The notes beneath the pieces were generated by a model, which saw only the letters and a list, made by a program, of their open reading frames with translations, searched no databases and was not told the DNA's origin. The position numbers were made by a program, and so were the translations under genes. A DNA stretch of 46,214 nt from Saprospiraceae bacterium (GTDB lineage: Bacteria; Bacteroidota; Bacteroidia; Chitinophagales; Saprospiraceae): NCBI GenBank assembly GCA_028285085.1, contig JANQQI010000137.1, forward strand, positions 1 through 46,214, in the 5' to 3' direction. This document shows, one piece after another, positions 10,128 through 13,672 of the stretch. Numbering within the stretch: position 1 is the stretch's first letter; every line of letters begins with the position of its first letter.

Positions 10128-10136
10128 TATAATTGC
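10128..10136 (+). promoter_or_regulatory. Putative promoter of the ileS leader (-7 element)
   Basis: TATAATTGC matches TAnnTTTG at seven of eight positions. Transcription would start near 10140, about 29 nt before the leader peptide ATG. A well-spaced -33 TTG is not visible, so this is a weak call made partly because the leader needs a promoter here. Confidence 0.4.
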
Positions 10137-10168
10137 GTAGCGACTTTTGTTCCAAAAAAGATCGACTG

Positions 10169-10222
10169 ATGAATTATCACTCAAATATAATAATTAGCAT
10201 TATCATTCGACGATTGTCCTGA
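10169..10222 (+). CDS. ileS leader peptide, isoleucine-rich
   Basis: This 17-codon ORF encodes MNYHSNIIISIIIRRLS. Six of the seven codons from 10187 to 10207 are isoleucine (ATA ATA ATT, then AGC, then ATT ATC ATT). It lies in the untranslated region of the isoleucyl-tRNA synthetase gene and ends in TGA at 10220-10222, exactly at the boundary of two mutually exclusive RNA pairings. An A-rich stretch precedes the ATG, as is usual for Bacteroidota starts. The peptide itself probably has no function; its translation rate would report the level of charged tRNA-Ile. The two ATA codons need the minor tRNA-Ile but the same synthetase. The second Ile triplet (10199-10207) is best placed for a stalled ribosome to cover attenuator segment 1 at 10212-10218. 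Confidence 0.85.
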   Translation: MNYHSNIIISIIIRRLS

Positions 10223-10272
10223 CAATCTGTGAAGTGCTGATTTATTCATACACAAGGGCTCTGGCAGATTGT
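10212..10272 (+). promoter_or_regulatory. Anti-antiterminator and antiterminator pairings of the ileS attenuator
   Basis: Segment 1 (GATTGTC, 10212-10218) is complementary to segment 2 (GACAATC, 10221-10227). With a realistic loop the 1:2 pairing is 5 bp. Segment 2 extended (ACAATCTG, 10222-10229) is perfectly complementary over 8 bp to segment 3 (CAGATTGT, 10265-10272), and segment 3 is also the upper 5' arm of the terminator. The three pairings are mutually exclusive. A ribosome stalled at the late Ile codons masks segment 1 and frees 2 to pair with 3. A ribosome at the TGA masks segment 2, so the terminator forms. Confidence 0.75.
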
Positions 10273-10292
10273 ACATCTGCCAGAGCTTTTTT
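10258..10292 (+). terminator. Intrinsic terminator of the ileS attenuator
   Basis: A perfect 12-bp stem (GCTCTGGCAGAT at 10258-10269, ATCTGCCAGAGC at 10275-10286) with a 5-nt loop is followed directly by six T (10287-10292). It lies between divergent genes, so it ends no upstream gene. It can only terminate a transcript heading into ileS, about 115 nt before the ileS start codon. Confidence 0.92.
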
Positions 10293-10295
10293 GTG

Positions 10296-10304
10296 TATCT
10301 TTGC
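10296..10304 (+). promoter_or_regulatory. Possible second ileS promoter downstream of the attenuator
   Basis: TATCTTTGC is an exact TAnnTTTG match lying 4 nt after the terminator T-run. If active it would give a basal ileS transcript that bypasses attenuation. A TTG at 10269-10271 is 24 nt upstream, slightly longer than the usual spacing. It overlaps the terminator hairpin on the DNA. Confidence 0.4.
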
Positions 10305-10405: not shown

Positions 10406-13400
10406 ATGTATAAAGAATTTAAAGGACTGAATTTGCCGGAAATCGACCAGACTATCCTGGATTTTTGGAAGAAGGAAAATGTTTTTCAAAAAAGTATCGA
10501 GCAGCGCGATAAGAATAACAGCTTTGTCTTTTACGAAGGACCTCCCTCTGCTAACGGCAAACCAGGTATCCACCACGTAATGGCCAGAACGGTAAAGGAT
10601 TTGTTCTGTCGTTTTCAAACGATGAAAGGAAAGCGCGTTGAGCGGAAAGGTGGATGGGATACGCACGGGCTACCCATTGAGCTGAGTGTAGAAAAAGAAC
10701 TTGGGATCACAAAAGAAGATATTGGTAAATCCATCTCGGTAGACGATTATAACAAAGCCTGCCGCGAAACGGTAATGCGTTATAAAGATTTGTGGGACGA
10801 TCTCACCGTTAAAATGGGATATTGGGTGGATCTTGACCATCCTTACATTACTTATGAAAATGAGTATATAGAAAGTGTTTGGTGGTTATTGAAAAGATTG
10901 TACGATAAGGATTTACTGTACAAAGGCTACACCATCCAACCTTATTCTCCGGCTGCGGGTACGGGTTTAAGTACCCACGAGTTGAATCAACCCGGTTGCT
11001 ACCGCGACGTCAAGGACACTACAGTTGTAGCTATGTTTAAGGTTAAACAAGATGAGCGTTCTGCTTTTTTATTCGATGATGAGCAGGAAGATGTGCGTAT
11101 CATGGCCTGGACGACGACTCCTTGGACTTTACCATCAAATACCGGCCTCATTGTCGGTCCCAAAATCGATTATGTTAAGATCAAAACGACGAATCCCTAT
11201 ACTGAAGCGTCAGTGAGTGTCGTCCTTGCAAAGGATCTCGTTACAAAGTGGTTTGGCGCTAAGAATCAACCTGAAATTCTATCAGAAAGCGAGACCTTCA
11301 AAGGGCCACAATTGGCTGATATCCGTTATGAGCAGCTCTTGGATTTTAATAATCCTATCGAACCATTAAACGGTAATACGGATGCCTTTAAAGTGATGGT
11401 CGACAACTATGTGACCACCGAAGATGGTACCGGTATCGTCCATTCAGCGCCTTCGTTTGGTGCGGATGACCGCCGAGTAGGATCCGCTAACGGAATGGGT
11501 ACCCTAACCCTGGTCGATAAGCAAGGAAAATTTATCAGTACCACCGGAGAGTTCTCTAATCGCTACGTCAAGGATTATAAAGATGACCCTGATTATGTTT
11601 CAGTAGACATCGATATCGCTGTCAAACTCAAAAAAGAAGGAAAAGCTTTCAACGTAGCTAAATATAGTCACAACTATCCACATTGCTGGCGTACTGATAA
11701 GCCGGTACTTTACTATCCATTGGATAGCTGGTTTGTCAAAGCGTCGAAGGTCAAGGAACGCATGTTCGAACTCAATCAGACCATCAATTGGAAGCCTGCC
11801 TCCACCGGAGAAGGTCGTTTTGGTAAGTGGCTGGAAAATCTTCAGGATTGGAACCTCTCACGCTCGCGTTACTGGGGTATCCCACTTCCTATCTGGCGAA
11901 CAGAAGACGGTAAACTCGAAAAGTGTATTAGCTCCGTCGCTGATCTGCAAGCTGAAATTGAAAAAGCAAATTCAGCCTTGGGGCTCAATCAAGATGTTCC
12001 TAAAGATTTGCACCGACCATACATTGACGACGTGGTACTCGTCAGCGAAGATGGCCAACCTATGCGACGCGAACTCGATCTGATTGACGTATGGTTCGAC
12101 AGTGGCTCTATGCCTTATGCACAGTGGCACTATCCTTTTGAAAACGAAGAAAAATTCAAGCATAATTTCCCCGCAGATTTCATTGCCGAAGGGGTAGATC
12201 AGACGCGCGGTTGGTTTTACACACTGCACGCCATTGCCACCATGGCTTTCGATAGCGTTGCTTACAAGAACGTAGTTTCGAATGGCCTCGTCTTGGATGC
12301 CAAGGGACTAAAAATGTCAAAACGGCTGGGTAATGCCGTTGATCCATTTGATACGCTAGCAACCTACGGCGCGGATGCTGTTCGTTGGTACATGATTTCA
12401 AATTCTTCACCCTGGGATAATCTCAAGTTTGACTTGAACGGGGTCACAGAAGTGCGTAATAAGTTTTTCGGAAAGCTCTATCAGACGTATTCGTTTTTTG
12501 CACTTTACGCAAATATCGATGGATTCAAATTCGCCGAAGCAGAGGTTCCGATGGTCGAGCGACCAGAGATTGATCGGTGGATTATCTCCTTACTGAACAC
12601 CTTGGTGAAAGAAGTTGATGCAGACTTTGCGGCTTACGAGCCTACACAGGCAGCCCGCAAGATTCAGGATTTCGTAGTAGAGAATCTGAGTAACTGGTAT
12701 GTACGTCTTTGCCGTCGCCGTTTCTGGAAAGGAGAATACGGCACGGATAAAATCGCAGCGTATCAAACCTTGTACACATGTTTGACTACCATCTCCAAAT
12801 TGATTGCTCCGGTGGCACCTTTCTTTTCAGAGTGGTTGTATAATAATTTAAATGAAGCCACTCAGAAAGAAGCGTCCGAAAGCGTTCACTTGTCGTTGTT
12901 GCCAGAAGTACAGACGGCGTTGATCGATGAGAAGCTTGAGCAACGTATGGAATACGCTCAGACTATTTCTTCCTTAGTGCTATCGCTGCGCAAATCGAAG
13001 AAAATCCAAGTGCGCCAGCCATTGCAAAAAATCATGTTGCCCGTCTTGGATAGTGAATTCCAAGAACAGGTAGAAGCCGTGAAAGATTACATTCTGGCGG
13101 AAGTGAATATTAAGACGATTGAATTCATCACGGATACCAGTGGCGTTATTAAAAAACGAATCAAGCCGAATTTCAAAACCCTGGGCCGCCGGCTGGGCAA
13201 AAACATGAAAGCGGCGGCAGCAGCGATCAATCAATTCAGCCAAGACGATATCGCCGCGCTTGAGGCATCAGGCCAATATCTCTTGGAGGTCGACGGTGAG
13301 CAATTTGAACTGGGGCTAGAAGATTTTGAAATCAGCTCAGAGGATATTCCGGGCTGGTTGGTCGCCAACAGTGGTGCGATCACCGTCGCCCTGGATATCA

Positions 13401-13672
13401 CCATTACCGAAGACCTCAAGGCCGAAGGAATGGCGCGTGAGTTGGTGAATCGTATCCAGAATTTGCGTAAGAGCAAAGAGTTCAACGTCACGGATAAGAT
13501 CGTGGTGCGTCTGGAAGCTCATGATAGCATTAGCCCCGCTGTTGATCAATTCGGTGACTATATCCGTACGGAGACGTTGGCTAAAGATTTACAGTTGAGT
13601 GATGGCGTCGAAGGTGATTTGATTGATCTCGCCGACGATGTACAATTGAACATTGAGGTAGCATTGGCTTAG
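10406..13672 (+). CDS. ileS: Isoleucyl-tRNA synthetase
   Basis: IleRS charges tRNA-Ile and edits misactivated valine. The 1088-residue protein has the catalytic signature NGKPGIHHVMAR (50-61, the HIGH equivalent), the tryptophan/threonine-rich editing-domain segment MAWTTTPWTLPSNTGL, WFDSGSMPYAQW, and KMSKR at 636-640. The long C-terminal anticodon-binding and appended domains are as in eukaryote-like (type 2) IleRS, the form usual in Bacteroidota. The open frame extends upstream to 10370. I chose ATG 10406 because MYKEFKGLNLPEIDQTIL is the conserved family start and the upstream 12 residues are atypical. The gene is monocistronic: a strong terminator follows. Its leader contains an Ile-codon-rich peptide and attenuator (10128-10292). 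Confidence 0.97.
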   Translation: MYKEFKGLNLPEIDQTILDFWKKENVFQKSIEQRDKNNSFVFYEGPPSANGKPGIHHVMARTVKDLFCRFQTMKGKRVERKGGWDTHGLPIELSVEKELGITKEDIGKSISVDDYNKACRETVMRYKDLWDDLTVKMGYWVDLDHPYITYENEYIESVWWLLKRLYDKDLLYKGYTIQPYSPAAGTGLSTHELNQPGCYRDVKDTTVVAMFKVKQDERSAFLFDDEQEDVRIMAWTTTPWTLPSNTGLIVGPKIDYVKIKTTNPYTEASVSVVLAKDLVTKWFGAKNQPEILSESETFKGPQLADIRYEQLLDFNNPIEPLNGNTDAFKVMVDNYVTTEDGTGIVHSAPSFGADDRRVGSANGMGTLTLVDKQGKFISTTGEFSNRYVKDYKDDPDYVSVDIDIAVKLKKEGKAFNVAKYSHNYPHCWRTDKPVLYYPLDSWFVKASKVKERMFELNQTINWKPASTGEGRFGKWLENLQDWNLSRSRYWGIPLPIWRTEDGKLEKCISSVADLQAEIEKANSALGLNQDVPKDLHRPYIDDVVLVSEDGQPMRRELDLIDVWFDSGSMPYAQWHYPFENEEKFKHNFPADFIAEGVDQTRGWFYTLHAIATMAFDSVAYKNVVSNGLVLDAKGLKMSKRLGNAVDPFDTLATYGADAVRWYMISNSSPWDNLKFDLNGVTEVRNKFFGKLYQTYSFFALYANIDGFKFAEAEVPMVERPEIDRWIISLLNTLVKEVDADFAAYEPTQAARKIQDFVVENLSNWYVRLCRRRFWKGEYGTDKIAAYQTLYTCLTTISKLIAPVAPFFSEWLYNNLNEATQKEASESVHLSLLPEVQTALIDEKLEQRMEYAQTISSLVLSLRKSKKIQVRQPLQKIMLPVLDSEFQEQVEAVKDYILAEVNIKTIEFITDTSGVIKKRIKPNFKTLGRRLGKNMKAAAAAINQFSQDDIAALEASGQYLLEVDGEQFELGLEDFEISSEDIPGWLVANSGAITVALDITITEDLKAEGMARELVNRIQNLRKSKEFNVTDKIVVRLEAHDSISPAVDQFGDYIRTETLAKDLQLSDGVEGDLIDLADDVQLNIEVALA

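Follow-up and report, generated by a model that had tools for sequence, protein, structure and literature searches.

The DNA analysed here, referred to as the window, is a stretch of 46,214 nucleotides from a member of the Saprospiraceae, and its home is contig C39 of a 7.47-Mb genome in 140 contigs. On the forward strand, to which all features of the window described below belong, positions 10406–13672 hold ileS, the gene for isoleucine–tRNA ligase, whose identity is certain: the product scores 1005 bits against TIGR00392, well over the cut-off of 621, it also matches PF00133, PF08264, and PF19302, and its closest named records are from Saprospiraceae. Upstream of the gene lies a putative −7 promoter element, P1 (TATAATTG, 10128–10135), which agrees with TAnnTTTG in seven of eight positions and lies 34 nt before the ATG of a short leader ORF (10169–10222; ATG at 10169, stop codon TGA at 10220–10222). 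This ORF, supported by the sequence, its homologues, and a leader scan, encodes the peptide MNYHSNIIISIIIRRLS and contains six isoleucine codons in seven (ATA ATA ATT AGC ATT ATC ATT, 10187–10207), the putative site of ribosome stalling. Close to its end are segment 1 (10212–10217) and segment 2 (10222–10229, with the segment 2 sequence GACAATCTG read at 10221–10229); the latter is one strand of an antiterminator whose other strand, segment 3 (CAGATTGT, 10265–10272), forms 8 bp with 10222–10229. Segment 3 in turn overlaps the 5′ arm (10258–10269) of a terminator, supported by the terminator scan, covariation, and folding, whose 3′ arm (10275–10286), evident from the sequence, the scan, and covariation, is followed by a run of six T (10287–10292). 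The terminator stem measures 12 bp with a 5-nt loop and −20.9 kcal/mol, and the T-run lies 113 nt from ileS. Behind it, a second putative −7 element, P2 (TATCTTTG, 10296–10303), is recognized from the sequence and its homologues.

A preliminary description, made from sequence alone, had claimed the isoleucine leader ORF, the segments, the terminator, and its T-run, and the coordinates of all of these agree with the sequence; the 8-bp pairing of segments 2 and 3 and the 12-bp pairing of segments 3 and 4 that it proposed also held, both covarying across the family. Its 1:2 helix held only in part, as the 7 bp claimed would leave a 2-nt loop, and RNAfold gives 6 bp (10212–10217 with 10222–10227) enclosed within a larger, 14-bp hairpin of 10192–10206 with 10229–10242. 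This larger hairpin, here called the protector, had been missed: the antiterminator appears to compete mainly with the pairing of the isoleucine-codon stretch 10192–10206 to 10229–10242, so that the 5′ strand of the protector lies within the isoleucine codons themselves. Both strands of the protector are given by RNAfold and by covariation.

The window on its own would not carry the case. A terminator scan of it was weak, with 3 terminators found against a shuffle mean of 1.3, and we dropped enrichment of the bare pattern ATH3-NNN-ATH3 as evidence, as it has 6 matches in the genome against 2 in the reversed control, the match in the window being the sole intergenic leader among the six. Since neither the bare isoleucine pattern nor the terminator scan is decisive, the case rests on conservation.

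To this end, we relied on a model-free scan, which uses no model of the element and reports short ORFs upstream of ileS with at least 5 isoleucine codons in 7. The search for ileS covered 59 genomes, of which 58 gave a match, which in some was merely to a related synthetase; upstream DNA was obtained from 56 genomes and reached at least 300 nt in 55, 33 of these belonging to the family of the window and 22 to other families within the order. Of the 33 family genomes, 12 have an isoleucine-rich leader upstream of ileS, where 20 shuffles gave 0.05 on average and never more than 1; none of the 22 genomes from the other families has one. When the same scan was run for V, F, T, S, or K instead of isoleucine, it returned 0 each, and for L it returned 3, where shuffles averaged 0.5. 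Homologous leaders include MNYSPNIIISIIIQRL, MNRKSTIISIIIIGLPGNLR, and MHQAFRHIIISIIIPDSGLLG. Across the 86 homologous sequences that could be read as leaders, the third positions of ATN codons between the first and last isoleucine are T in 346 cases, A in 105, C in 71, and G in 2, so that ATG accounts for just 2 of 524 ATN codons within the isoleucine runs and the third position is otherwise free among T, A, and C.

For a wider view, 16 attenuators, some with fewer isoleucine codons, were chosen by eye and aligned to build a covariance model, which matched 154 of 398 family genomes and 61 of 112 genera, training genomes counted in; 244 of the 398 family genomes gave no match, and the filters of large searches lose weak matches. 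Among the best 30 family matches, ileS lies downstream in 29. The alignment of matches had 96 rows, two of which are opposite-strand echoes, and of the remaining 94 matches (a few loci occur twice) ileS is downstream within the stretch examined in 90 and within 330 nt in 83, at a median of 67 nt, while three of the four without ileS stop at a contig edge. With a further six loci left out and identical sequences merged, 88 homologues remain for the pairing statistics, of which 84 were modelled for ribosome states; five of the six omitted loci are second copies of loci already present, and the sixth, L172 (the element of G384), was left out without good reason.

All three competing helices show compensatory changes. 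The terminator (3:4) is paired in 98.7% of cells, with double changes in 9 of 11 pairs. The antiterminator (2:3), a helix that was left out of the model used for alignment, is paired in 87.5%, with double changes in 8 of 8 pairs, against 26–37% in slid controls. The protector, between isoleucine codons and linker, is paired in 83%, with double changes in 6 of 7 pairs and a covariation score of 0.301 against 0.140 in shuffles. The protector and the terminator were the helices to which this alignment had been fitted, and the counts lean towards both accordingly; the number of doubly changed pairs in the protector was reached in 89 of 500 shuffles. When the protector is slid by 3 columns, 59–66% of cells still pair because the isoleucine codons form a triplet repeat, and the covariation score falls below 0.09. 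An earlier MAFFT alignment of the 16 gave 72.4% pairing for the protector, 92.9% for the antiterminator, and 98.8% for the terminator. Cognate duplexes also beat all 300 between-genome permutations, with z of −12.6 for 2:3, −11.7 for the protector, and −6.9 for 1:2, and the cognate duplex was better than shuffled letters from its own genome in 85, 75, and 69 of the 88 homologues, respectively; none of the permutation and shuffle controls used here corrects for relatedness. The antiterminator and the terminator are mutually exclusive structures maintained by compensatory changes, and the comparison that the preliminary description had proposed, a look upstream of ileS for an isoleucine-rich ORF and for covariation in helices 2:3 and 3:4, is positive in many genomes of the family.

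Folding with and without a ribosome is consistent with this anatomy. In the window, an untranslated leader through segment 3 folds into one hairpin, the protector around 1:2, whereas RNA that is free from 10205 on forms the 2:3 helix instead. In the model, the ribosome was assumed to cover 12 nt beyond the A site when stalled at the third isoleucine codon and 9 nt at the last isoleucine codon or the stop. The modelled 2:3 pairing before arm 4 emerges, averaged over 84 sequences, is 0.44 without a ribosome, 0.87 with a stall at the third isoleucine, 0.78 with the ribosome at the last isoleucine, and 0.03 at the stop; the corresponding probabilities for the window are 0.50, 1.0, 1.0, and 0.0. 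It exceeds 0.5 in 36 of the 84 without a ribosome, in 80 with a third-isoleucine stall, and in 2 with the ribosome at the stop, one of these two exceptions being L021, whose leader has just 10 codons. Stalling raises the modelled pairing above the ribosome-free value in 82 of the 84, and in 51 the 3′ edge of segment 2 is where the leader stop codon starts. The model also predicts that the protector is not decisive everywhere: with 36 of 84 sequences favouring 2:3 without a ribosome, the untranslated state is ambiguous.

The promoter motifs recur as well. TAnnTTTG is the −7 consensus of Bacteroidota (PMC7366714, PMC9723704), and although P1 of the window carries one mismatch, 37 of 88 homologues have an exact TAnnTTTG at 20–60 nt upstream of the leader, where shuffled sequences gave a mean of 2.2 and at most 8, and 56 of the 88 have one no more than about 60 nt past the T-run, against a mean of 5.5 and at most 11 in shuffles. 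From this we infer, in the absence of RNA data, a regulated P1 and a constitutive P2. The motif directly after the terminator extends the preliminary picture, as it could bypass the switch, and it is possible that a P2-like promoter leaves the attenuator little quantitative weight.

Taken together, the element is very likely a ribosome-mediated transcription attenuator for ileS, a judgement made without RNA or translation data. Its anatomy, its conservation, the compensatory changes in the three competing helices, and its thermodynamic consistency are established, whereas the activity of P1 and P2 as promoters, a ribosome that trails the polymerase closely, and a response to isoleucine are inferred, the rise in read-through being only modelled. 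In the proposed mechanism, the transcript would begin at P1 and a ribosome would start on the leader peptide. Were charged tRNA-Ile scarce, the ribosome would stall in the run of isoleucine codons and, because these codons double as the 5′ strand of the protector, would open that hairpin and free segment 2, which could then pair with the emerging segment 3, so that no terminator would form and ileS would be transcribed. Were Ile-tRNA plentiful, the ribosome would reach the stop codon at segment 2 and cover this segment, the terminator would form, and the P1 transcript would end. If the leader remained untranslated, the protector would compete for segment 2, favouring termination in about half of the sequences, and P2 behind the terminator would provide a basal supply of the essential IleS. 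The preliminary description had already proposed that a stall at isoleucine allows 2:3 and that a ribosome at the stop leads to termination; comparison and modelling support this logic, and the response itself remains an inference. Further support comes from the match between the amino acid of the leader and the regulated gene, and from an Ile/Val leader at ilvD of the same genome.

Three rival readings deserve discussion. The one that survives best retains the same switch but takes its chief signal to be a shortage of IleS activity, as in autogenous control or the presence of IleS inhibitors, rather than the supply of isoleucine. It can be argued, by inference, that any slowing at the isoleucine codons would stall the ribosome alike and that the regulated gene encodes the charging enzyme; on the other hand, the Ile/Val leader of ilvD in the same genome points to amino-acid supply. 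The two signals cannot be distinguished from sequence; we lean away from this reading. The second rival sees an insulating terminator between divergent genes, with P2 alone driving ileS and the isoleucine ORF a product of chance or a relic. In its favour are the promoter motif immediately behind the terminator and the many family genomes without the element. Against it, the isoleucine codons and segment 2, for which a terminator has no need, are conserved and covary with their partners, and the third codon positions vary among T, A, and C and yet give ATG in just 2 of 524 cases, and we consider it unlikely. The weakest rival, that the element works not by termination but by an effect on translation, such as reinitiation at the leader, or on RNA stability, can invoke short leader ORFs near genes, which are widespread and linked to reinitiation (PMC4833913), but is very improbable given the strongly covarying 12-bp GC-rich stem and T-run between leader and ileS, the distance of 113 nt to ileS, and a P2 that would yield ileS transcripts without the leader.

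In the genomes sampled, the ileS element is restricted to one family, and to only part of it. A phylum-wide search with the covariance model, subject to the same loss of weak matches to search filters, matched 6 of 395 genomes and found no phylum-wide ileS attenuator; two of the six are in the family of the window, one (L225) is an isoleucine leader before ilvE-ilvD, and three (L224, L226, and L227) look like ordinary terminators behind genes, which puts chance matches of the model near 1%. Because many family genomes have no match, the element must be dispensable. Genomes with the attenuator are spread over the ileS tree, with 12 changes among 29 rows, and a single clean origin is unsupported, since 485 of 500 sets of shuffled labels gave as low a number; one row labelled absent (L002), with no more than 21 nt of upstream DNA, allows no judgement. 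The scatter may reflect repeated loss or transfer of ileS. On the same tree of 29 relatives, the four genomes of the window's genus do not form one group, and the window's ileS pairs with that of G018. In G187, two contigs (C68, L175; C126, L176) each carry an attenuator followed by ileS, possibly a second ileS or contamination (5% in the table).

Several genomes carry more than one copy of the element, with other genes in between. G374 (L167:768–4611, contig C13) has five tandem attenuators, followed in turn by Uma2, Uma2, UPF0175/DUF3368, VapB/PIN, and ileS. G240 (L169:1997–3598, C86) has an attenuator, Uma2, an attenuator, and DUF433/DUF5615, with ileS about 30 bp further on and no third attenuator. 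In G081 (L168:2038–3575, C95) the order is attenuator, Fic, attenuator, ileS, and the two copies, 1,397 bp apart, are part of a perfect direct repeat of 207 bp, which contains both the promoter motif and the attenuator; the Fic gene may well be a recent acquisition. G139 has two copies with 93% identity, between which there is just an opposite-strand ORF without a Pfam match. Single copies with other genes before or instead of ileS involve MNT/HepT (L144), Abi_C (L184), a 23S IVP (L237), PIN (L246), VapB (L264), and a type IIG restriction enzyme (L174). Counter to this pattern, L228 has just a sub-threshold DUF6308 match, and the ORF at L232 reads like a lipoprotein, though without a domain search. 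Of the 24 genomes in which the model matched more than once, 4 have true tandem copies. These cases were met by following multiple matches and not through a survey, so that no rate can be given and chance enrichment is not excluded. As a separate observation, three of the five copies in G374 have the same palindromic insert (CCCGATAGCTATCGGG) in their linker. A bolder and only possible reading is that the ileS attenuator has come to form a cassette boundary in some members of the family, with toxin–antitoxin-like, Uma2, and Fic genes acquired between copies and a copy directly before the cargo, so that the starvation switch would control defence or stress genes together with ileS. The duplicated attenuators raise the question of how and why such genes settle there.

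By its anatomy, the switch should raise the charging enzyme when isoleucine runs short, and it offers an anatomically complete, covariation-supported route by which a lineage of Bacteroidota that uses no T-box here could match a synthetase to its cognate amino acid. The preliminary description had remarked that T-boxes seem absent from this phylum; within the window, a search with 4227 Rfam families, the T-box included, gave no match at gathering score. Attenuation of this type depends on a ribosome that follows the polymerase closely, and a conserved attenuator is therefore also indirect evidence for coupled transcription and translation. Bacteroidota mRNAs lack Shine-Dalgarno sequences (PMC6847099), and coupling in such a phylum becomes testable in cultured Saprospiraceae, among which Flavilitoribacter nigricans DSM 23189 (L075) and Neolewinella aquimaris DSM 105137 (L089) carry the element.

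Related leaders are found before other genes. In the genome of the window (G000), ilvD (C69, L198) is preceded by the leader MKTFINIISIIIIVIGSQ, then a hairpin and a T-run, and several of 29 ilvD loci have Ile/Val-rich short ORFs upstream, under a loose threshold and without a shuffle control. The ileS model itself found an ilvD-ilvB leader in G272. Ile/Val-rich leaders with terminator-like hairpins before ilvD were also observed at L195, L201, L205, L207, and L178, and in another family of the class (G505, L225:1501–3121) the ileS model finds the leader MNRFLNIIISIVIISSPPS and a terminator before ilvE-ilvD. These ilvD leaders, in the same genome and in relatives, share with the ileS element a branched-chain leader, a hairpin, and a T-run, and differ from it by their mixed Ile/Val content and the biosynthetic operon that follows; it is possible, as speculation, that the ileS element derives from an ilv attenuator. 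For leuS, pheS, and valS, a crude scan of 26 leuS loci, 22 pheS loci, and 20 valS stretches (24 genomes searched each for leuS and pheS, with some leuS loci and one valS stretch of 187 nt truncated) gave no consistent leader. Its candidates, three unrelated Leu-rich and three unrelated Phe-rich ORFs and no Val-rich ORF, were rejected; one of the Leu-rich ORFs, from the window's genome (L282), is a long way upstream of leuS and without counterpart in the other genomes.

In the open-access literature searched we recognized no leader-peptide attenuator of ileS, in keeping with the preliminary description, which knew of none described in this phylum; one could be contained in Lopatovskaya et al. 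2010, which by its title deals with the attenuation of operons for aminoacyl-tRNA biosynthesis (cited in PMC4833913). Vitreschak et al. 2004 reportedly predicted some attenuators in Bacteroidetes/Chlorobi. Rfam contains a Bacteroid-trp motif. For Flavobacterium psychrophilum, leader-peptide attenuation has been proposed for amino-acid biosynthesis operons (PMC9723704), and the same work mentions mRNAs of aminoacyl-tRNA synthetases, unnamed in the relevant text, with structured 5′ UTRs; phylum and proposed mechanism are thus shared with the element described here, but no ileS element is named there. The translational ileS T-box of Actinobacteria (PMC1262725) shares the gene and, in effect, the signal, uncharged tRNA-Ile; however, it binds the tRNA directly and controls translation initiation, whereas the Saprospiraceae element would sense charging through a translated ORF. 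Synthetase attenuators of the present class are known for pheST, and for trpS and leuS in Streptomyces (PMC1262725). With pheST/trp-type attenuation the ileS element shares a leader peptide rich in the cognate amino acid, competing helices, and a terminator before the synthetase gene; its own features are isoleucine and ileS, its occurrence in Bacteroidota, control codons that also serve as a strand of the competing hairpin, and a promoter motif behind the terminator. Judged against the open-access literature searched, the type of attenuation is the known one of trp and pheST, and what is likely new is its target, the lineage in which it occurs, and the fact that the competing hairpin takes one of its strands from the control codons.
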